A DNA stretch of 35,969 nucleotides from contig CACWLD010000035.1 of the NCBI GenBank assembly GCA_902761655.1, positions 1 to 35,969 of the forward strand, written 5' to 3'. The notes beneath the pieces were generated by a model. It was not told the origin of the DNA. It did not search any database and saw only the letters and a program-made list of their open reading frames with translations. Shown one piece after another: positions 11,258 through 25,968 of the stretch. The DNA is from an uncultured Bacteroidia bacterium (GTDB taxonomy: Bacteria; Bacteroidota; Bacteroidia; Bacteroidales; UBA932). Position 1 is the stretch's first letter, and every line of letters begins with the position of its first letter. The position numbers and the translations under genes were made by a program.

Positions 11258-11944
11258 ATGTATAAAGTCAGCATCAAGCCTGAAGAGATGGAAAAACTGC
11301 CGCTGGCAGGTTTCCAGGGTGAAATACAGGTGATAGATAAGAAGGGCCTGAAATATCTCAGGGCCCTGGATTATCTGAACAGGCAGCAGGTAATAGGTTT
11401 TGATACGGAGACCCGTCCCACCTTCTCCCCAACGCAGAAGAGCTACGGAGTGTCCCTGCTTCAGCTGTCCGGTCCTGACAAGGCGTTCCTTTTCAGGGTC
11501 AAGTTGCTGGGAATGACTCCCAGGCTGTGCCGCCTTATGGCCAATGAGAAGATTGCCAAGGTTGGCGCCGCAACGGCCGATGACGTGCGCGGCCTCCAAC
11601 GCCACGCCAAGTTCAAGCCTGCCGCTTTCATTGACCTTCAGAAGATTGTGTGGGAGTACGGCATCAAGGACAAGAGCGTCAAGAAGATGGCGTGCATCAT
11701 TTTGGGCTTCCGCATTTCCAAGACCCAGCAGCTTTCCAACTGGGAGGCGGAGGAGCTGTCCGAAGCGCAGAAGCGCTACGCAGCTACCGACGCCTGGGTG
11801 TGCCGGGAGATGTATCTGAAGCTTCTTGCAAGCGAGAAGAATCCGCTGGACGCGGAGGAGCTGATGCCGCCGCCACAGCCGCCGCAGCCTGCAGTTGAGG
11901 CCAAACCTGAGACAAATGGTAAGAATCGTCCTAAAAAGAAATAG
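11258..11944 (+). CDS. DEDDy 3'-5' exonuclease domain protein (WRN/RNase D-like)
   Basis: The 228-residue protein is a stand-alone DnaQ-fold exonuclease. D49 and E51 in IGFDTETRP form motif I, D108 or D109 in AATADDVRGLQ lies in motif II, and Y174 with D178 in RYAATDAWVCREMY form the DEDDy motif III. The C-terminal tail (after residue ~200) is Pro/Lys-rich and probably disordered. Family members degrade the 3' ends of structured RNA or DNA. The next gene starts inside it, so this gene, rlmI and the rluA-like gene form a tight operon; the two partners modify rRNA, which favours an RNA-processing role by inference only. Confidence 0.88.
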   Translation: MYKVSIKPEEMEKLPLAGFQGEIQVIDKKGLKYLRALDYLNRQQVIGFDTETRPTFSPTQKSYGVSLLQLSGPDKAFLFRVKLLGMTPRLCRLMANEKIAKVGAATADDVRGLQRHAKFKPAAFIDLQKIVWEYGIKDKSVKKMACIILGFRISKTQQLSNWEAEELSEAQKRYAATDAWVCREMYLKLLASEKNPLDAEELMPPPQPPQPAVEAKPETNGKNRPKKK

Positions 11945-13217
11945 GGAGGAGTCGCTCCTGCGTTTCCATCCTTGGGTCTTCTCCGGAGCCATCGCCCAAA
12001 TCCAGGGCTCTCCGGCGGAAGGCGACGTCGTTGCCGTCTATGCCGCCGACGGTTCTTTCCTGGCCATCGGGCACTACCAGATCGGCTCTATCGCCGTGCG
12101 TGTCCTTAGCTTTGAGTATGACACTCTTCCTGCAGATTTCTGGGAGACTTCGCTCCGCCGTGCACTTTCTGTTAGAGTTGCGGCTGGGTTAGTGCTCCGG
12201 ACAGAGGTGTCTGTTGGAAAGTGCCACAAAGCAGGCAAAGCCGAAAGCACTTTCCAACAGACACCTCTGTCCTCCGACAGTACTGACAAAGCAGGCAAAG
12301 CCGAAAGCTCCGTGACCAATTGCTACAGGCTGGTGCACGGGGAGGGGGATAACCTGCCGGGGCTGATCATTGATTATTACGACGGGGTGTGCGTGATGCA
12401 GGCGCATTCGGTGGGGATGTTTCGGGCTAAGAAGCAGATTTGCGATGCGCTGAGAGCGGTGTATGGGGACGCCTTGAAGGCGGTTTATGACAAGAGTTCC
12501 GGGACGGCGCCGTTCAAGGCGGGTCTGGAACTCGTGGATGGTTACCTGTACAAGGCGGACGGCTTCGAGGACCAGAGCCAGGTGGTGCTGGAGAACGGGC
12601 ACAAGTTCATCGTCAACTGGACGGAAGGGCAGAAGACCGGGTTCTTCCTGGACCAGAGGGAGAACAGGGCCCTGGTGGGCAGGATGGCCGCCGGAAGGCG
12701 CGTGCTCAACCTGTTCTGCTATACCGGAGGCTTCTCCATTTACGCGCTGGCCGGCGGCGCCCTGCACGTAGATTCCGTGGACAGTTCGGCCCGGGCGCTG
12801 GCGCTGGTGGACAAGAACGTGGAGCTGAACGGCTTTGACGCTTCTATGAACGAGAGTTTCTGCACGGACGCAATAGAGTTCCTGCGCAATTCGCCGCAGG
12901 ATAAGTATGACCTTATAATAGTGGATCCGCCGGCATTTGCCAAGCACCGCGGAGCCCTGGGGAATGCCCTGCGGGCATACCAGAGGCTCAACGCGGCCGC
13001 CATCGCTAAGGTGGCGCCCGGCGGGCTGGTGTTCTGCTTCAGCTGTTCGCAGGTGGTTACCAAGGAGGACTTCGCCCTGGCGGTATTCTCCGCCGCGGCC
13101 CAGACCGGCCGCCGTGTCCGTATCCTTGACCGGCTCAACCAGCCGGCAGACCACGCCGTAAATATCTATCATCCGGAAGGGGAGTATCTGAAGGGGCTTC
13201 TGCTTTACGTGGAGTAG
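11916..13217 (+). CDS. rlmI: RlmI-like 23S rRNA methyltransferase with in-frame palindromic insert
   Basis: The protein has about 433 residues. It has an N-terminal PUA-type domain (LKRNREESLLRFHPWVFSG), the linker YRLVHGEGDNLPGLIIDYY, and a SAM-dependent methyltransferase domain with NLFCYTGGFSIYA (motif I, SAM binding) and DLIIVDPPAFAKH (motif IV). The RlmI family makes 5-methylcytosine in 23S rRNA. ATG 11916 is chosen because it begins exactly at the conserved VRIVLKRNREE; a TTG at 11895 is less likely. The start overlaps the exonuclease gene by 29 bases. Residues ~95-131 (RTEVSVGKCHKAGKAES and onwards) have no counterpart in the family and are encoded by the 115-bp palindromic element at 12194-12308, between the first domain and the methyltransferase linker. 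Confidence 0.92.
   Translation: MVRIVLKRNREESLLRFHPWVFSGAIAQIQGSPAEGDVVAVYAADGSFLAIGHYQIGSIAVRVLSFEYDTLPADFWETSLRRALSVRVAAGLVLRTEVSVGKCHKAGKAESTFQQTPLSSDSTDKAGKAESSVTNCYRLVHGEGDNLPGLIIDYYDGVCVMQAHSVGMFRAKKQICDALRAVYGDALKAVYDKSSGTAPFKAGLELVDGYLYKADGFEDQSQVVLENGHKFIVNWTEGQKTGFFLDQRENRALVGRMAAGRRVLNLFCYTGGFSIYALAGGALHVDSVDSSARALALVDKNVELNGFDASMNESFCTDAIEFLRNSPQDKYDLIIVDPPAFAKHRGALGNALRAYQRLNAAAIAKVAPGGLVFCFSCSQVVTKEDFALAVFSAAAQTGRRVRILDRLNQPADHAVNIYHPEGEYLKGLLLYVE
12194..12308 (+). repeat. Coding palindromic element A, copy 1 (in rlmI)
   Basis: This 115-bp segment is shared with 13537-13651 at about 92% identity (9 differences by hand count). A 26-bp arm (12199-12224) is perfectly complementary to 12247-12272. 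The 22-base loop begins a 23-bp unit (12226-12248) that recurs exactly at 12286-12308. It is read through in frame and gives about 38 extra residues, including KAGKAES twice. In mRNA it would form a long hairpin. Confidence 0.92.
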
Positions 13218-13219
13218 CC

Positions 13220-14650
13220 GTGCTTCCGGAAAAGTTCACATATCCGTTCTGCTATGTTCCGCACCCGCTTATCCGGGAGGCGGCGGCCGCTCTCATTGAG
13301 CGCATTGACGCCTCCGATTACCTGCGGGGGCTTTTTGGGGAAGGGAAGATGATGGGCGCCCTGCTGGTGCAGGATGCCGCCGGAGACACCCGGGTGCTCT
13401 ACGGCTTTTCCGGCGTGGCTGGAGGCACCGCCCTGGTGGAGGGCTTCGTTCCTCCCATCTTTGACCTTACAGAGCCGGGAGGTTACTACCGTGCCGCCGA
13501 AGCGCGGATAACGGCGATCAATGAACGGCTAGCGTTGCTCCGGACAGAGATGTCTGTTGGAAAGTGCCACAAAGCAGGCGGAGCCGAAAGCACTTTCCAA
13601 CAGACATCTCTGTCCTCCGACAGCACCCACAAAGCAGGCGGAGCCGAAAGCGTGGAGGCGCTTGAGCGGGAGCGGCACGCGCTGTCGGTGGAGCTGCAGG
13701 ACTGGATCTTCAGCCGCTACCGCGTGTCCAACGCGCGCGGCGAAAGCCTCTCCATAAAGGAGGTGTTCGCCAGGCGCGGGTTGGTGCCGCCGGGCGGCAC
13801 GGGGGACTGCGCGGCGCCAAAGCTGCTCCAGTATGCATATAGCCACGGGCTGAAGCCACTGGCGATGGGCGAGTTCTGGTACGGAGCCTCCCCGCGCCGC
13901 GAAGTCCGCACGCAGGGCCGCTTCTATCCGTCCTGCACCGGCAAGTGCGGCCCGCTCCTGGAGTTTATGCTCCAGGGCTTGGACGTGGAGCCCAACCCCC
14001 TCGCACAACTCTCCACCCGCGAACCGCGCATCGTCTTTCAGGACCAGTACATAATAGTGGCGGAGAAGCCCTCCGGGATGCTCGCCGCCCCGGGACGCTA
14101 TGTGTCCCACTCTATGGTCAGCGCCCTTGAGAAACTCACAGGGGCGGAGGTCTTCTCCTGCCATCGGCTGGATATGGATACCTCCGGCCTGATGGTCTTT
14201 GCCAAGACCACGGCCGTCCAGGCAGCGCTCCACCGGCAGTTCGCGGCCGGGGAAGTGCACAAGCGCTATCAGGCGCGCCTCCAGCCCGGCCGCGAACTCC
14301 CCGCGGAGCAGGGCGAAATCAGCATCCCGCTCTCGCTGGACTACTACGACCGCCCCCGACAGATGGCCGATTGGGAGTCCGGCAAGCCCGCTCTCACACG
14401 CTATCGGGTGCTCCGTCACAGGCGTGACGGCAGCACCGATATCGAGTTCGAGCCGCTCACCGGCCGGACCCACCAGCTCCGCGTCCACGCTGCTCACGCG
14501 CTGGGCTTGGGCCGCCCCATAGCCGGAGACCGGCTCTACGGCGGCGACCCCGCCACCCCGGACGCTCCGCTCGCCCTCCACGCCTCGCGGCTGGAATTCC
14601 GTCACCCCGTGACGGGGGAGCCGCTCCTCTTCCAATCCCCTTTAAAATAA
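13220..14650 (+). CDS. RluA-family pseudouridine synthase with in-frame palindromic insert
   Basis: The 476-residue protein has an N-terminal extension typical of the longer Bacteroidota/gamma-proteobacterial RluA-like enzymes (PFCYVPHPLIREAA) and a C-terminal pseudouridine synthase domain. The catalytic aspartate is D318 in CHRLDMDTSGLMVFAKT, and EPLTGRTHQLRVHAAHALG is the conserved substrate-side motif. It isomerises uridines in rRNA or tRNA. The start is GTG, two bases after the rlmI stop; no ATG lies before the conserved N-terminus. Residues ~108-144 (RTEMSVGKCHKAGGAES and onwards) are encoded by palindromic element A copy 2, which sits in a helical region before the catalytic domain and keeps the frame open. 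It is the last gene of the exonuclease-rlmI-rluA unit. Confidence 0.92.
   Translation: MLPEKFTYPFCYVPHPLIREAAAALIERIDASDYLRGLFGEGKMMGALLVQDAAGDTRVLYGFSGVAGGTALVEGFVPPIFDLTEPGGYYRAAEARITAINERLALLRTEMSVGKCHKAGGAESTFQQTSLSSDSTHKAGGAESVEALERERHALSVELQDWIFSRYRVSNARGESLSIKEVFARRGLVPPGGTGDCAAPKLLQYAYSHGLKPLAMGEFWYGASPRREVRTQGRFYPSCTGKCGPLLEFMLQGLDVEPNPLAQLSTREPRIVFQDQYIIVAEKPSGMLAAPGRYVSHSMVSALEKLTGAEVFSCHRLDMDTSGLMVFAKTTAVQAALHRQFAAGEVHKRYQARLQPGRELPAEQGEISIPLSLDYYDRPRQMADWESGKPALTRYRVLRHRRDGSTDIEFEPLTGRTHQLRVHAAHALGLGRPIAGDRLYGGDPATPDAPLALHASRLEFRHPVTGEPLLFQSPLK
13537..13651 (+). repeat. Coding palindromic element A, copy 2 (in the rluA-like gene)
   Basis: It has the same 115-bp structure as copy 1. 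Arms 13542-13567 and 13590-13615 are perfectly complementary over 26 bp, and the 'ACAAAGCAGGC...' unit is repeated at 13569-13591 and 13629-13651. It is translated in the same frame as copy 1, giving KAGGAES twice. Base differences from copy 1 come in mirrored or repeated positions. Confidence 0.92.
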
Positions 14651-14832: not shown

Positions 14833-14940
14833 CATGGAGTGTAACTACCTCTAAATCAGTAAATTAAACCTTTCAACGGTAACTTGCAGACGACCGTTGA
14901 AAGTTTCTTTTGCTTGATAATCAACGCGTTACACTCCACG
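14833..14940 (+). repeat. REP-like palindrome 1
   Basis: The outer stem TGGAGTGTAAC (14835-14845) pairs with GTTACACTCCA (14928-14938). The inner stem CTTTCAACGGT (14870-14880) pairs with ACCGTTGAAAG (14893-14903). Both stems are perfect over 11 bp. GGAG at the 5' foot resembles the GTAG/GGAG head that RAYT enzymes recognise in REP sequences. Confidence 0.88.
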
Positions 14941-14980: not shown

Positions 14981-15006
14981 TAATGTAATCATTGAAGGGA
15001 CGGCTT

Positions 15007-15600
15007 ATGGGAAGAAGTTACAGGAAATACCAGGATGGAAACATCTGTCACGTCTATTGTAAGGCAGTAAATGGAAATATCATTTTCTATTCATCCCGGG
15101 ACATCATATTTTATTTAACCCTTTACTATCATCTGGCCCGGAGGTACGGAATAGTCACCCGGGCCATTGCCATTATGCCCAACCACGTGCATTCCAACGA
15201 ACAGGCCAGGACCACGGAATCCTTCATCAGTTTCCATAGGGACATTAACAGGATTTTTACCAAGGAGTACAACCAGGAACATAAAAGGTCAGGACGTGTT
15301 TTTATAAAGCCTTTCGGGTATGCTCCAAAGTATAAAGGAAAAACAATCAGGCAAAACATAACCTATATTGTCAACAATCCGGTAGTTGGGGGACTGTGCA
15401 AGGATATCGATTCCTACAGATGGACCCTGATGGCATACAGGAATTCAGATCATCCCTTCTCTGAGAAGATAGTCTTGAATAAGGCATCCTTCCGGCTCAG
15501 ACGTTCCCTAACCCGGCTGCAGTACTACTTCGATAACGGAATTCCCCTTAAGAGTGCTTTTCCAAGGGCTGAATCCCAAAGAGACAGCCCAACTGACTGA
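15007..15600 (+). CDS. REP-associated tyrosine transposase (Y1_Tnp/RAYT), catalytic part
   Basis: The 197-residue product contains the whole HUH single-strand transposase domain. The metal-binding HUH pair is H60-V-H62 in IMPNHVHSNEQ and the nucleophile is Y120 in ITYIVNNPVVGGLC, the classical Y1 transposase signature. RAYT enzymes cleave REP hairpins in single-stranded DNA and are thought to spread them. ATG 15007 is preferred over an in-frame TTG at 14992, because MGRSYRKYQDGNICHVYCKA matches the family start. After residue ~180 the frame runs into a short unrelated tail and stops. The expected C-terminal region continues in the next frame from about 15554, so the gene appears frameshifted. 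Confidence 0.85.
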   Translation: MGRSYRKYQDGNICHVYCKAVNGNIIFYSSRDIIFYLTLYYHLARRYGIVTRAIAIMPNHVHSNEQARTTESFISFHRDINRIFTKEYNQEHKRSGRVFIKPFGYAPKYKGKTIRQNITYIVNNPVVGGLCKDIDSYRWTLMAYRNSDHPFSEKIVLNKASFRLRRSLTRLQYYFDNGIPLKSAFPRAESQRDSPTD

Positions 15601-15913
15601 TAGGATCATATCAATGCATAACTGCTTGGATTATAACAGGATAGCCAAATACTACAACAATAGTATTGAGAATGCAGTTTTGGCAATTAGCGCCAACTCC
15701 GGAACTGAGTACGACATCAAGGAGGACTCTGAGGATTACAGCCTGTACAGGACTATGACAAAGATTGCCCTTGAACAGGGAGTCGATCTTAAACGGTGCA
15801 ACTTTGAAAAGATGGATGTAGAACAATTGGCCAGACTGGCAGACAGGTTCCTTTGGGCCGGAGTGCCGCCAAGATTGGTCTGCAAGTTCCTCCATATGGA
15901 ACAGCTCAAGTGA
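15554..15913 (+). pseudogene. Displaced C-terminal part of the RAYT protein (frame +1)
   Basis: This frame reads GLNPKETAQLTDRIISMHNCLDYNRIAKYYNN, then NSGTEYDIKEDSEDYSLYRTMTKIA. That resembles the C-terminal extension seen on longer Bacteroidota RAYT-like proteins. The upstream frame ends KSAFPRAESQ; removing one T from the run of four at about 15557-15560 would join KSAF to QGLNPKE and give one protein of about 300 residues. It could be a decayed gene, a programmed frameshift, or a separately translated protein from GTG 15554 or ATG 15614. Family memory, not alignment, supports the join. Confidence 0.6.
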
Positions 15914-21908: not shown

Positions 21909-22949
21909 CTAGAAATGCCTGAACCCTATAAAATCCTGGCTGGAACCTTCCCAGACCAGGGTTTTTTCTTTTGTGATTGTGCCGATGACAAAGTACGGAA
22001 CGGGAGGCTCCGTGCCGGGGGCCATTGTGAAAAGGAGTTCGTAGTCCTCGCCGCCGGTGAGGGCCAGGGTGGTTGCGTCCCAGCCCTGCTGGGCGCACAC
22101 CCGGCGCAGCTCGGCGGAAAGAGGGACGTCCTGCGTACGCACCGCCGCCCCTACGCCTGAGGCCTTCAGTATGTGCCGCAGGTCCGATGCAACGCCGTCC
22201 GATATGTCCATCATTGCGTGGACGCCCGGTGTCGCGGCAAGGGCCTGGCCCTCGCTTACGCGAGGCACCGGCCTGTAATGACGCTCCACCAGCGCCTCCG
22301 CGTCCTGGCCGGCCTCCGCGTCCTGGCCGGCCTCCGCGTCATGGCCGGCTTGACCGGCCATCTGAGATGCCCGATCGAGTCGGGCATGACGTTCAGAGAG
22401 GGCATGACGTTCAAGGATTAGTTTCAGGCCGGCGGCGGAGTCGCCCAGGGGGCCGGTCACGCAGACCAGGTCGCCGGGAACGGCGCTGCTGCGCTTGCGT
22501 GACCGGCCGCGCTGGCACTGGCCAATCACGGTGACGTTGATTGCTATGCCGTCCTGCGAGGTGGTGGTGTCACCGCCGAGCAGGGGAGCGCCGCAGTACT
22601 GCGAGCACTCCTTGTAGCCGGCCAGGAAGGCGTCCATCCAGTCGCTGTCCAGGCCTGCGGGCAGGCCCAGCGACAGGAAAGACCCCACGGGCCGGCCGCC
22701 CATCGCTGCTATGTCGCTGAAGTTCACTGCCGCGCTCTTCCAGCCCAGCAGGCGGGCGGGGATGTCGCCCCTGAGGAAGTGGGAGCCTTCAAGCAGCATA
22801 TCGGTGCTAACCAGGGTCTCCATCCCGCCGGCCTGCGGCAGTACGGCGCAGTCGTCCCCTATGCCAAGGACTCCGTCCGGCATAGGGCCCCCCAGCGCCT
22901 CCTTTATGCGCTCTATCAGTCCAAATTCTCCCAGTTCCTTTAAATCCAT
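21909..22949 (-). CDS. thiL: Thiamine-monophosphate kinase with in-frame palindromic insert
   Basis: The protein of about 346 residues has the PurM/ThiL fold with LGIGDDCAVLPQ (Mg-ATP site, residues ~28-39), VNFSDIAAMGG, LLGGDTTTSQDGIAINVTVIG and VHAMMDISDGVASDLRHI. It phosphorylates thiamine monophosphate to the active diphosphate. Residues ~181-219 (RHALSERHARLDRASQ and onwards, with AEAGQD repeats) are foreign to the family and come from a cluster of palindromes and 18-bp repeats at 22294-22413, placed after the LKLILE helix. ATG 22949 is chosen: the longer frame starts with TTG inside the -7 box. The promoter ends six bases before this ATG, so the mRNA may be leaderless. Confidence 0.93.
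   Translation of the reverse strand: MDLKELGEFGLIERIKEALGGPMPDGVLGIGDDCAVLPQAGGMETLVSTDMLLEGSHFLRGDIPARLLGWKSAAVNFSDIAAMGGRPVGSFLSLGLPAGLDSDWMDAFLAGYKECSQYCGAPLLGGDTTTSQDGIAINVTVIGQCQRGRSRKRSSAVPGDLVCVTGPLGDSAAGLKLILERHALSERHARLDRASQMAGQAGHDAEAGQDAEAGQDAEALVERHYRPVPRVSEGQALAATPGVHAMMDISDGVASDLRHILKASGVGAAVRTQDVPLSAELRRVCAQQGWDATTLALTGGEDYELLFTMAPGTEPPVPYFVIGTITKEKTLVWEGSSQDFIGFRHF
22294..22413 (-). repeat. Coding palindrome cluster B, copy 1 (in thiL)
   Basis: On the plus strand there are three 18-bp units (22294-22311, 22312-22329, 22330-22347). A hairpin ATGGCCGG-CTTGA-CCGGCCAT (22341-22361), a hairpin ATGCCCGA-TCGAG-TCGGGCAT (22367-22387), and a partly repeated 18-bp unit GGGCATGACGTTCA (22382 and 22400) follow. 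All are translated as part of ThiL, giving RHARLDRAS and AEAGQD repeats. Confidence 0.88.
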
Positions 22950-23059: not shown

Positions 23060-24544
23060 ATGCTAAAGAAATCCCGTATCGCTTTGGCGGCCATCTTTTT
23101 CATTGCAATCTCCCTGCTCTTCCTGGGCATCAGCGGAGAATTGACAAAATGGTTCGGATGGATGCCAAAGTTCCAGTTCCTTCCGGCCGTGCTCGCCGTC
23201 AACGTGGGCGTCATCCTGCTCTTGATTGTGGTGGCACTTCTCTTCGGCCGTTGTTACTGCTCCATAGTCTGTCCTATGGGCGTATATCAGGACATTGTTT
23301 CCTGGCTTAGCAGCAAGCGCAAAGGCAAAAAGATGCGCTTCTCCTACAAGAAAGAAATCAAGTGGCTCCGCTATGGAATATGGGCTCTCTTTGTAGTTGC
23401 CCTCATAGCCGGAATCCAGGTATTCGTGGCCCTTCTGGCACCGTACAGCGCCTACGGAAGGATGCTCCGCACCCTTGTAGCCCCGGCTTCTACCGGAACC
23501 ATAATCATTGCAATAGTCACCTTCCTGGTAGTCACAATCCTGGCCTGGATTGGCGGCCGCACATACTGCAACACAGTATGCCCGGTTGGAACAACGCTCA
23601 GCTTCTTCTCTCGCTTCGCTATGTTCCGCCCCATAATCGATGCTGACAAGTGCAAGGGCTGCCGCGCCTGCGAAAAGCAGTGCAAGGCCTCCTGCATTGA
23701 CATCGCCAACAAGAAGATAGACTACAGCCGCTGCGTTGACTGCTTCAACTGCGTTGAGAACTGCAAGTTCGGCGCCCTCACCTATGGCAAGGCCTGGGGA
23801 AGCAAGATTGCCGGTCAAGCCGGCAATGACGCAGGTGCCGGCAATGACGCAGGTGCCAGCAATGACCAGACCCGTCATGCCCGGCTTGACCGGGCATCTG
23901 AAACCTCCAAGGTTGACGAGGGCCGCCGCGCGTTCATAGCGTCTTCGGCTATCGCCGTGACAGCCGCTACGCTTGGCGCCCAGGAAAAGAAGCTGGACGG
24001 CGGACTGGCGGAGATCATAGACAAGCAGGCTCCGGAGCGCACAGCGCCGCTCACCCCGTTCGGCTCTGACAGCATCAAGGACTTCTACCGCCATTGCACC
24101 GCCTGCCAGCTGTGCGTGGCCAACTGTCCTAACCACGTGCTTCGCCCGTCTATGGACCTTGCCCACTTTATGCAGCCAGAAATGAGCTACGAGAACGGCT
24201 ACTGCCGTCCGGAGTGCACCAAGTGCTCGCAGGTATGCCCCGCGGGCGCTATCAAGCCCATAACCCCTCAGGAGAAGACCCAGTTCCATATTGGTGTGGC
24301 TACCGTAGACCGCAGCCTCTGCGTTGTTGAGCGCGACGGCGTCACCTGCGGCAACTGCGCCCGCCACTGCCCTGTAGGCGCCATAATGATGGTACGCAAA
24401 GACCCTCAGGACAGGCGTTCTCCTCAGATCCCTTCAGTTGACGAGACCAAGTGCATAGGTTGCGGCGCCTGCGAGAACCTCTGCCCTTCACGCCCGTTCA
24501 GCGCAATTCACGTCAACGGACTTCAGGTACACATTAAAGACTAG
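23060..24544 (+). CDS. NapH-like membrane protein fused to a polyferredoxin, with in-frame palindromic insert
   Basis: Residues 1-190 hold about four membrane helices and two CxxxCP motifs (C67-C71 and C170-C174) of the NapH/MauN family. Residues ~198-240 hold two 4Fe-4S motifs (CKGCRACEKQC, CVDCFNCVENC). Residues ~250-281 (AGQAGNDAGAGNDA and RHARLDRASE) come from the palindrome cluster at 23807-23899. After this follows EGRRAFIASSAIAVTAATLGA, which looks like a Tat-type signal or second anchor, and then a ferredoxin region with four further cysteine clusters (CTACQLCVANC, CTKCSQVC, CGNCARHC, CIGCGACENLC). It probably passes electrons from the quinone pool to an exported partner. Six bases separate it from the Tat-exported aldo-keto reductase, its likely partner. 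Confidence 0.88.
   Translation: MLKKSRIALAAIFFIAISLLFLGISGELTKWFGWMPKFQFLPAVLAVNVGVILLLIVVALLFGRCYCSIVCPMGVYQDIVSWLSSKRKGKKMRFSYKKEIKWLRYGIWALFVVALIAGIQVFVALLAPYSAYGRMLRTLVAPASTGTIIIAIVTFLVVTILAWIGGRTYCNTVCPVGTTLSFFSRFAMFRPIIDADKCKGCRACEKQCKASCIDIANKKIDYSRCVDCFNCVENCKFGALTYGKAWGSKIAGQAGNDAGAGNDAGASNDQTRHARLDRASETSKVDEGRRAFIASSAIAVTAATLGAQEKKLDGGLAEIIDKQAPERTAPLTPFGSDSIKDFYRHCTACQLCVANCPNHVLRPSMDLAHFMQPEMSYENGYCRPECTKCSQVCPAGAIKPITPQEKTQFHIGVATVDRSLCVVERDGVTCGNCARHCPVGAIMMVRKDPQDRRSPQIPSVDETKCIGCGACENLCPSRPFSAIHVNGLQVHIKD
23807..23899 (+). repeat. Coding palindrome cluster B, copy 2 (in the NapH-ferredoxin gene)
   Basis: Hairpin ATTGCCGG-TCAAG-CCGGCAAT (23807-23827) is followed by two 18-bp units (23828-23845, 23846-23863, one difference) and by hairpin ATGCCCGG-CTTGA-CCGGGCAT (23877-23897). 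All are translated in frame. It shares the RHARLDRAS peptide and the hairpin type with the thiL copy, with the parts in a different order. Confidence 0.88.
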
Positions 24545-24550
24545 AAAGAG

Positions 24551-25924
24551 ATGGAAGACAAGAAAAACATAAGCAGAAGAGATTTCATAAAGGTGGCCGG
24601 CGCCGGTGCGCTGGCTGTGGGAGCAGCCGCCTGCGCACCTAAGGCCAAGGCCCCTGCCGTAACCGCATCTGCACATCAGACCGGTGACGGAGAAATGGAA
24701 TACCGCATAAACAACAAGAACGGAGACAAGGTATCCCTCCTTGGATACGGCTGTATGCGCTGGCAGATGAAGCGTGACGAGAGTACCGGCCGCCAGGTAG
24801 TTGACCAGGATTCCGTAAACGCCCTTGTGGACAAGGCAATGGCCGGGGGAGTGAACTATTACGACACCTCACCCGCATACCTCCAGGGACAGAGCGAAAA
24901 GGCTGCCGGAATTGCCCTCAGCCGCTATCCCCGCAAGTCATACTACATAGCCACCAAGCTTTCCAACTTCAACAACGCCACTCCGGAGGCATCAAAGCAA
25001 ATGTACTTCGATTCCTTTGATCAGCTGCAGACGGACTACTTTGACTACTACCTGATGCACGGCATCGGCAGTGGCGGATACAGGGCTTTCAGCCAGCGTT
25101 ATGTGGACAACGGAATGATGGACTTCCTGCTCAAGGAGCGCGAATCCGGACGCATCCGCAATATGGGCTTCTCCTTCCACGGAAGGCAGGAGGAGTTTGA
25201 CGAGCTCATCAAGACAAACGACCAGTACCACTGGGACTTTGTCCAGATTGAGATGAACTACATTGACTGGCGCTACGCAAACGCCAGCAACACAGATGCT
25301 GAATACCTGTACGAGCAGCTGGACAAGCTTGAGATCCCCATCACTGTAATGGAGCCGCTCCTTGGCGGACGTCTTGCAACCGTTCCCGAGAACGTTGCAA
25401 GGAGGTTCAAGGAGCGCGACCCGGACGCTTCCATATCCTCCTGGGCATTCCGCTTTGTAGGATCCCATCCGCGCGTGCTCACCGCACTCAGCGGTATGAC
25501 CTATATGGAGCACCTTGAGGACAACCTCAAGACCTTCCGCGGATTCCATCCTATGACAGAGGAAGAGCTCGAGTTTATGAACGACCAGGCTGTCCTCTAC
25601 TCAGAGTTCCCTATGATCAACTGTACGCACTGCAACTACTGTATGCCTTGCCCTTACGGAATCAACATTCCGGAAATCTTCGCATACTACAACAAGTGCG
25701 TCACTGAGGAGAAATACCCCCAGAGTAGGGAACAGGAAAACTACAAGAAGCTCCGCAAGGAATATCTGCGCAACTATGACAAGGCGGTTCCAACACTCCG
25801 TCAGGCAGACCACTGTATTGCCTGCCGCCAGTGTATGCCGCACTGCCCGCAGAGCATCCAGATCCCCAACGAGCTCCAGCGCATAGACCGCTACGTAGAA
25901 TCCCTCAAGCAGGACACTCTGTAG
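24551..25924 (+). CDS. Tat-exported aldo/keto reductase with 4Fe-4S ferredoxin domain
   Basis: The 457-residue protein starts with a twin-arginine signal (ISRRDFIKVAGAGALAVG; R9-R10) that also contains a lipobox-like AAAC (C28). An aldo/keto reductase barrel follows at roughly residues 50-330 (LGYGCMRWQ, YYDTSPAYLQGQSEKAAGIAL, YYLMHGIG). A C-terminal ferredoxin-like domain contains CTHCNYCMPCPYG and CIACRQCMPHCP. Bacteroidota commonly pair such proteins with a NapH-like ferredoxin; here that gene lies six bases upstream. The substrate is unknown. The last 45 bp of the gene are exactly duplicated in tandem just downstream, and the duplication created the present TAG stop. Confidence 0.9.
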   Translation: MEDKKNISRRDFIKVAGAGALAVGAAACAPKAKAPAVTASAHQTGDGEMEYRINNKNGDKVSLLGYGCMRWQMKRDESTGRQVVDQDSVNALVDKAMAGGVNYYDTSPAYLQGQSEKAAGIALSRYPRKSYYIATKLSNFNNATPEASKQMYFDSFDQLQTDYFDYYLMHGIGSGGYRAFSQRYVDNGMMDFLLKERESGRIRNMGFSFHGRQEEFDELIKTNDQYHWDFVQIEMNYIDWRYANASNTDAEYLYEQLDKLEIPITVMEPLLGGRLATVPENVARRFKERDPDASISSWAFRFVGSHPRVLTALSGMTYMEHLEDNLKTFRGFHPMTEEELEFMNDQAVLYSEFPMINCTHCNYCMPCPYGINIPEIFAYYNKCVTEEKYPQSREQENYKKLRKEYLRNYDKAVPTLRQADHCIACRQCMPHCPQSIQIPNELQRIDRYVESLKQDTL

Positions 25925-25968
25925 CGCATAGACCGCTACGTAGAATCCCTCAAGCAGGACACTCTGTA
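25879..25968 (+). repeat. Exact 45-bp tandem duplication of the reductase 3' end
   Basis: 25879-25923 is repeated without change at 25924-25968. The junction forms TAG (25922-25924). In the same frame the second copy encodes the same 14 residues (RIDRYVESLKQDTL) and ends in TAA at 25967-25969, presumably the original stop. Confidence 0.95.

Follow-up and report, generated by a model that had tools for sequence, protein, structure and literature searches.

Two adjacent RNA-modification genes of an uncultured Bacteroidales bacterium probably carry in-frame copies of a dispersed hairpin element

The window analysed here, a stretch of 35,969 nt from an uncultured Bacteroidales bacterium, contains rlmI and an rluA-like gene side by side, and within each lies a copy of one 116-nt sequence, the longest direct repeat listed in the window (12193-12308 and 13536-13651, 92% identity, spacing 1343):

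11895..13217, + strand: rlmI, 23S rRNA m5C methyltransferase family, scoring under the NCBIfam equivalog cut-offs
12193..12308, + strand: element copy 1 (116 nt) in rlmI, direct repeat, missing from 29 aligned genus loci
12199..12224, + strand: copy 1, left arm of the 26-bp hairpin
12225..12246, + strand: copy 1, conserved 22-nt apical loop, CACAAAGCAGGC-AAA-GCCGAAA
12247..12272, + strand: copy 1, right arm, 0 mismatches
12285..12308, + strand: copy 1, second loop unit, without a stem (core 12288-12307; matched weakly by the CM at 12286-12306, E 0.0081)
13220..14650, + strand: RluA-family pseudouridine synthase with an N-terminal extension
13536..13651, + strand: element copy 2 (116 nt) in the rluA-like gene, direct repeat, missing from 29 aligned genus loci
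13542..13567, + strand: copy 2, left arm of the 26-bp hairpin
13568..13589, + strand: copy 2, apical loop, CACAAAGCAGGC-GGA-GCCGAAA
13590..13615, + strand: copy 2, right arm, 0 mismatches
13628..13651, + strand: copy 2, second loop unit, without a stem (core 13631-13650; matched weakly by the CM at 13627-13650, E 0.004)

The two copies share orientation and reading frame, as a preliminary description of this DNA had reported for a 115-bp sequence, and both ORFs run through them free of stops, gaining about 38 residues (TEVSVGKCHKAGKAES... in one copy and TEMSVGKCHKAGGAES... in the other). Each copy contains the perfect 26-bp inverted repeat that had been described, around a 22-nt loop, and the loop sequence appears again 60 nt downstream; the two 23-bp units noted earlier in each copy do therefore recur, the unit being the loop sequence and its second occurrence lacking arms. 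The copies are near-duplicates, stray second loop included, and so do not represent two independent choices of frame. Because that stray loop is common to both, the two copies would derive from one insert and a short-range copying event.

The insert in rlmI, whose start may be the ATG at 11916 instead of the TTG at 11895, lies in the linker joining the PUA domain to the catalytic part, and that in the rluA-like gene lies in a length-variable stretch of the N-terminal extension, clear of the catalytic domain (residues 271-474). Among solved structures the closest is 3c0k (yccW), which we take to be E. coli RlmI; it aligns to residues 8-89 and 140-436 of the rlmI query, with nothing between. Homologues were aligned within the genus, and the insert was found in 0 of 29 aligned rlmI loci (L074-L102, from 30 listed; this search gave some match in 80 of 81 genomes, host included) and in 0 of 29 aligned rluA-like loci (L104-L132, from 30 listed). 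Together with the ORFs, these alignments uphold the earlier claim that some 38 residues were added where the families lack them, without breaking either gene, and they yielded no orthologous segment in the genus homologues of either gene. In the sister species, unrelated repeats occupy the same linkers. The rlmI hairpin is complete in the host and in genome G151, is present as a half hairpin in G001 and G130, where half hairpins and remnants were called by eye, and is absent from G431. Among the host, G001, G151 and G431, a further copy lies in folC in all but the host, in the frame of the rlmI and rluA copies. On sequence comparison we think it right to regard both segments as a palindromic element inserted in frame, with no ancestral domain involved.

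A search of the host genome and its relatives revealed a dispersed family, with 26 places in the host, 27 in the sister MAG RGIG10251, 11 in G001, 9 in G130 (a contig end truncates one of them) and 12 or more in G431, a lower bound in a family draw that scored 12 candidates per genome. One row, L197 (20.8 bits, E 0.148), was dropped before hairpins were counted. Carriers number 3 among the 151 genomes drawn from the genus and 2 among the 398 drawn from the family, the host being counted in both; the two draws overlap and stricter filters were used, so absences there are not proof. What had been described as a 115-bp palindromic unit stands as a palindromic insert, but what actually repeats is a hairpin about 70-95 nt long, whose loop is constant and whose stems vary freely, and it is mostly intergenic in the host. 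A strict scan of genome contigs for the loop pattern gave 13 stretches, no Rickettsia record among them; four, all from RGIG10251, have a hairpin on inspection, and the other nine, in which inspection found none, were taken as chance. Three viral contigs also match the loop pattern, with no stem around the loop on inspection, and viral carriage was set aside. Rfam at gathering cut-offs, run over the whole window, gave no family match to the element, its sole match being a tRNA. Five sequence strings from the element did not occur in the literature searched, and among the matches listed there we found neither a name for nor a description of the sequence, or of a family with constant loop and variable stems, in agreement with the preliminary description, which had recognised no named family. 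The hairpin family is lineage-specific, found so far in five related genomes.

Across copies the apical loop is nearly constant, ACAAAGCAGGC-N3-5-GCCGAAA, and is closed by a small GGC/GCC stem, with outer stems of 14-39 bp (median 28). Over 73 hairpins 1827 of 1884 stem pairs (97%) are Watson-Crick, while the stem sequence varies. In a 27-sequence alignment, changes on both sides of a pair number 206 cells as compared to 61.7 in shuffles, and 92.3% of cells are paired as compared to 36-43% when slid. Further pair types, a covariation measure, number 54 as compared to 52.7 in shuffles (197 of 500 shuffles reach 54), and the inner 3-bp stem is invariant in this alignment and so gains no support from covariation. 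Fifteen orthologous pairs with similar stems, picked by hand (a sixteenth, L137:4210 / L047:2322, was dropped as out of register, and junctions with unrelated stems were left out), show 18 compensated double changes and one of another kind, along with 13 single changes, over 382 stem positions; nine of the 18 are transversions. Mismatches on the loop strand comprise 31 A.C as compared to 7 G.T when counted once per stem cluster and position, a count that ignores shared descent, and 40 as compared to 8 overall. This excess is not predicted by pure correction between arms, so selection on the folded strand is possible. The frame used in rlmI and rluA is open in 46 of 72 hairpins (one of the 73 was skipped) and two other frames in 55 and 50, so that use of one frame by the in-gene copies is neither imposed nor exceptional.

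Several comparisons bear on how the family spreads. Three near-identical host copies (L177, L179 and L180) lie on three contigs, and their flanks share no alignable sequence outside the element except a second repeat motif to the left of each; the flanks of four further, similar copies (L138 twice, L137 and L139) are likewise unalignable. At one junction the host has one hairpin and the sister another, beside a surviving right arm of the host type, and the sister's hairpin there is a near copy of one elsewhere in its own genome. Orthologous junctions retain a hairpin while its sequence differs, and in two comparisons (L175:1044 with L190:1568, and L166 with L155) the loop is flipped relative to the flanks with the stem unchanged. 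Replacement at orthologous junctions could instead be fast divergence in place. As to target-site duplication, 68 of the 73 copies have no direct repeat of at least 4 nt within 2 nt of the stem ends, and no duplication longer than 4 nt was found near them.

The intergenic copies cluster at gene 3' ends. Among the 48 that could be classified, 34 lie between convergent genes, 14 between tandem genes and none between divergent genes, orthologous copies being counted separately with shared descent uncorrected, and many lie less than 20 nt from a stop codon. The other 25 of the 73 hairpins were left unclassified, either where the end of a stretch or contig leaves one side without a neighbour or where a predicted ORF covers the copy, a placement that is real for rlmI, rluA and folC and probably spurious in many other cases. 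With ORFs of at least 120 aa in 21 stretches, hairpin spacers are 13 convergent, 5 tandem and 0 divergent, as compared to 4, 24 and 24 among hairpin-free spacers 40 nt or longer; with ORFs of at least 180 aa the counts are 13, 6 and 0 as compared to 5, 14 and 20. The ORF caller behind these counts is crude and, the window aside, the stretches were fetched around hits, so the spacer background is biased. At the 3' end of fba, a hairpin followed by at least four T occurs in 16 of 28 non-carrier loci (one with a weak 6-bp stem), a count made without a shuffle control, and at that same 3' end the host and G001 carry a family hairpin. The clustering at gene ends could reflect a function for the host instead of mere tolerance.

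We consider it probable that rlmI and rluA hold in-frame copies of a hairpin element that is lineage-specific, dispersed and spreading. Such an element would spread in the form of a folded hairpin, inserting into or taking the place of another inverted repeat, for instance a host terminator or an older copy, a step that might resemble the stem-loop-replacing transposition put forward for IS1272. Its arms would remain matched mainly through each arm templating the correction of the other. A rare landing in frame in a permissive linker would then survive since the protein tolerates the peptide, which probably has no function of its own, and hairpin sequence would already have been present in both genes when the sister species split off. 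We only infer how the element moves and whether it ends transcription. A bolder version, which we offer as speculation and rate as distinctly unlikely, is that the family is a mobile terminator, a self-spreading hairpin that trades places with inverted repeats at gene ends. Some enzyme would recognise the constant apical loop as folded single-stranded DNA, the hairpin would then supply the 3'-end function of the site it occupies, the stem sequence would drift freely while arm-to-arm copying kept the pairs, and the rlmI, rluA and folC copies would be off-target events.

The spreading-element reading overlaps in part with two rivals. The family might function as RNA at the 3' ends of genes, acting as a bidirectional terminator or a stabiliser of mRNA 3' ends maintained by selection, with the in-gene copies as strays; this is a realistic possibility, if not a likely one. 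The predominance of convergent junctions close to stop codons argues for it, as do the hairpin and T run in non-carrier fba loci at the position of the family hairpin, the retention of a hairpin at orthologous junctions despite sequence change, the near-constant loop, and the A.C excess, which suggests selection on one folded strand. Yet a TTTT run stands at the stem base in just 2 of 146 ends, so the family hairpins are not ordinary intrinsic terminators, and the two richest genomes hold just 26 and 27 copies, with five carrier genomes in all. Orientation flips, the copies inside coding genes, and the half of compensated changes that are transversions, with no G.U intermediate, also speak against an RNA element. 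Alternatively, the family might be REP-like and depend for its movement on a Y1 (RAYT) transposase, perhaps that of the gene at 14992-15600 in the window; this we regard as quite improbable. Y1_Tnp matches occur in three of the four carriers searched (G151 was left out), namely G000 (three, one over the cut-off, in the window), G130 (two, one over) and G431 (four, three over), but 6 of the 12 non-carrier genomes searched have such matches too, and carrier G001 (74% complete) has none. GTAG lies near the end of 11 of 73 hairpins (15%; background 11.7%) and CGTC, sought from 10 nt outside to 3 nt inside the stem ends, at 6 of 73 (8%; background 16.5%), and the hairpin adjoining the Y1 gene of the window differs in sequence from the family. 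A Y1/RAYT element is not supported by these findings. We note that the spreading-element reading itself draws on no transposase tied to the family and on no directly observed movement.

Two further explanations concern the segments themselves. An ancestral coding domain, or a PARCEL-like protein repeat under protein-level selection, would account for both copies being open in one frame that the folC copy also uses, but it is very improbable: the segment is missing from the 29 aligned genus loci of each gene, the majority of classifiable family copies are intergenic, and the insert-free genus loci, together with the comparison of these linkers among the carriers, led us to reject an ancestral domain in rlmI and rluA. 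An assembly artefact of the host MAG is hardly credible. The assembly is fragmented (63 contigs), and two contigs, C2 at its start and C31 at its end, break off at family hairpins that share a stem and might thus represent a single locus; nevertheless, another MAG carries this rlmI insert too, with its flanks in agreement and its frame kept.

Ogata et al. reportedly described the Rickettsia palindromic elements (RPE), and it was in the spirit of these and of PARCEL repeats that the segments had first been placed; the first likeness holds in behaviour and the second fails. In-frame insertion, open ORFs and copies elsewhere in the genome, as looked for in an RPE, are all seen here, and by the partial descriptions at hand RPE are likewise palindromic, lineage-bound and in frame inside genes that stay open. 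RPE were described from Rickettsia, and it is such descriptions, not sequence comparison, that set our family apart. In the passages cited, one end of the R. conorii RPEs bears a CGTC tag (PMC3733652), a motif without enrichment in our family, and RPE arms lose identity with time (PMC6649704), whereas in our family the arms remain matched during sequence turnover and the loop, not the arms, is constant. PARCELs are portrayed in the portion cited as repeated amphipathic protein domains, often in membrane proteins (PMC2996958); they share with our family coding sequence with dyad symmetry, but the family is mostly non-coding and occurs as single inserts in RNA-modification enzymes and folC.

REPs, as outlined in part of one source, measure 20-40 bp with a GTAG or CGTC tag and stems of 6-13 bp in GTAG families, lie mainly between convergent and unidirectional genes with some inside genes, and in some cases have loops closed by GGC/GCC (PMC3733652). 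On this outline our family resembles them as short palindromes with convergent or unidirectional siting (34 and 14 of 48), some in-gene copies and the same loop closure, and differs in its longer, variable stems and the lack of tag enrichment. IS1272, on the excerpt cited, is a 1.9-kb IS that encodes its transposase, and its palindrome-ended unit replaces an inverted repeat of other sequence with no target duplication (PMC5678879). The hairpin-for-hairpin change at the one clear junction between host and sister recalls that account, with the difference that no transposase gene is tied to our family. Perfect inverted repeats in coding genes are also known from nematomorph mitochondria, for which the section cited names template switching as a possible cause of concerted arm evolution (PMC6649704). 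Those repeats, so described, are mitochondrial and in genes, whereas our family is dispersed, intergenic and has one common loop. The double-hairpin elements of Allomyces, small hairpins proposed to be mobile and dispersed in compact mitochondrial genomes, are alike by description in being dispersed and small, and differ in being mitochondrial. We do not class the family with MITEs, as its arms are the variable part and 68 of 73 copies lack a direct repeat of at least 4 nt. We place it among the mobile palindromic repeats, as a lineage-specific variant.

Mobile palindromes surviving inside proteins are already known from Rickettsia, and the present case lies in the Bacteroidales, where close relatives show several stages: a full copy, half of one, none at all, and different repeats within that linker. 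Conservation in the family is inverted, with a constant loop on a varying paired stem, and this pits arm-to-arm templated correction against selection on RNA. If the exchange between hairpin and terminator is true, transcription ends would belong to the mobilome.

We note in the window a direct repeat of 116 nt (12193-12308 and 13536-13651, 92% identity by repeat search), both copies of which lie inside open reading frames and carry a perfect 26-bp hairpin with a 22-nt loop. The palindromic repeat that the preliminary description had seen in frame within rlmI and the adjacent rluA-like gene is thus upheld, and the second unit it reported in each copy is an armless recurrence of the loop 60 nt downstream. 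The copies and their genes are as follows:

12193-12308, + strand: copy 1, in the gene for an RlmI-family methyltransferase (PUA_3 match over residues 11-73; the catalytic part starts near residue 139)
13536-13651, + strand: copy 2, in the gene for an RluA-family synthase (catalytic domain, residues 271-474)

The tip of the loop (loops at 12225-12246 and 13568-13589) is AAA in rlmI and GGA in the rluA-like gene, and TCC stands in rlmI of RGIG10251, a yak-rumen Bacteroidales MAG with 90.6% identity to the window across one 6.6-kb stretch. TCC being the reverse complement of GGA, it looks as though the inner GGC/GCC hairpin had flipped.

Judged from alignments of homologues, the element is an insert in both genes, as had been proposed. 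The segment is absent from all 29 aligned rlmI loci of the genus, where the linker from the PUA to the catalytic domain is shorter, and from all 29 aligned rluA-like loci; the solved structure 3c0k (yccW) aligned on either side of the rlmI segment and not through it. The position in the rluA-like gene is naturally length-variable, and some genus members have a long insertion there that by eye resembles a coiled coil. Three other genomes of the genus (G008, L281; G065, L282; G058, L283) have unrelated in-frame rlmI inserts of roughly 45-60 residues at a different site, around query residue 315 and so within the catalytic part.

The DNA search of the host genome suggested by the preliminary description turned up related hairpins. 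A covariance model built on 27 of these from the host and RGIG10251 gave 26 full-length places in the host (two at contig ends share a stem and could be one locus), 11 in G001, 9 in G130 (a contig end truncates one of them) and, at E 0.001, none in the remaining 148 of 151 genus genomes. RGIG10251 has 27 places. Among 398 genomes drawn from the family, matches came only from the host and G431, another genus member with at least 12 copies. A strict loop pattern retrieved 13 stretches from the GTDB contig collection, and the hairpin formed only in the four from RGIG10251.

Outer stems in 73 hairpins from four genomes range from 14 to 39 bp, with a median of 28; of the 1884 pairs in them, 1827 are Watson-Crick. 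Stem sequence is highly variable with strong covariation (score 0.710 vs 0.188 in shuffles of the 27-sequence alignment), further pair types being no more frequent than in shuffles (54 vs 52.7) and the inner stem showing no variation in that alignment. The apical part is near-constant: one unpaired side resembling ACAAAG, then a small GGC/GCC stem with a tip of 3-5 nt, then GAAA or CAAA. As judged by eye, the base preceding the bulged A and the one that follows GCC change in concert, C going with G and G with C. No direct repeats longer than 4 nt were seen adjoining the 73 stems, nor were REP tags enriched at their ends.

Near-identical or similar elements occupy different host sites with flanks that cannot be aligned past the element, except for a second repeat motif beside some of them. 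Where junctions are orthologous between species, the hairpin may be shared, shared but flipped, or different; at one junction the host has one hairpin and RGIG10251 another, which is a near copy of a hairpin found elsewhere in its own genome and adjoins a right arm like the host's. Over 382 stem positions in 15 orthologous similar-stem pairs there were 13 single and 19 double changes, 18 of the double changes being compensated (9 of these 18 as transversions) and 1 not, and this favours arm-to-arm templating over stepwise RNA selection. Mismatches on the loop strand, counted once per stem cluster and position, were 31 A.C against 7 G.T in the 73 hairpins, as if the fold of the opposite strand were selected, and this strand bias counts against pure templating.

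Convergent genes flank 34 of 48 classifiable copies, orthologous copies each being counted; 14 have neighbours on one and the same strand, and none has divergent neighbours. The fba (aldolase) 3' end, for which 30 loci were taken from 77 genomes with a match, carries a family hairpin in the host and G001; in 16 of 28 loci from genus genomes without the family, a hairpin followed by at least four T stands there. A T run follows the family's own stems at 2 of 146 ends.

The two modification genes and a third, folC, have a varied history. In RGIG10251, rlmI has the full hairpin and the rluA-like gene its left arm and loop; in both genes an unrelated second repeat comes next, again in frame. In that genome's stretch, L133, this repeat reads TGTCATTCTGAGCG...CAGGATGACA and is accompanied by an 18-nt tandem unit; 15 of the 73 family hairpins have similar motifs no more than 45 nt away. 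By eye, rlmI in G001 and G130 has half a hairpin joined to yet another repeat; in G431 it is without the hairpin. The rluA-like gene retains a short left-arm-like remnant in G130 (by eye), has no insert in G431, and in G001 (L249) bears an unrelated palindromic insert, GCGAGCACCA.../TGGTGCTCGC, which by eye is in frame and occupies this gene's length-variable position. An in-frame copy in folC is present in G001, RGIG10251 and G431 and absent in the host. Of 72 hairpins tested, 46 leave open the reading frame that the copies in these three genes have in common; the shared frame is therefore not forced. The linkers of these genes appear repeatedly to gain and lose palindromic repeats, and the window's two copies are an old pair of near-duplicates and not two independent choices of frame.

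Other features of the window may be recorded here. A Y1_Tnp-like (IS200/RAYT) gene (14992-15600, its reading possibly extending into 15554-15913) closely follows the rluA-like gene and a tRNA. Upstream of it is a hairpin of its own (about 14870-14903), enclosed, by eye, in a further inverted repeat, TGGAGTGTAAC/GTTACACTCCA; this hairpin has no sequence relation to the element. At one gene's end stands a perfect 45-bp tandem duplication (25878-25967), whose two copies adjoin at the gene's stop codon (25922-25924), and a 62-nt inverted repeat pair (22302-22363 and 23805-23866) is 79% complementary, its members 1.4 kb apart.

The likeness to Rickettsia palindromic elements in the preliminary description stands as regards behaviour; the tags by which REP/RPE groups are tested are not enriched in the element. 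In published behaviour, the nearest parallel found is with IS1272, for which stem-loop-replacing transposition has been proposed (PMC5678879). We infer the mode of movement, and we read the element as a lineage-specific mobile palindromic element.
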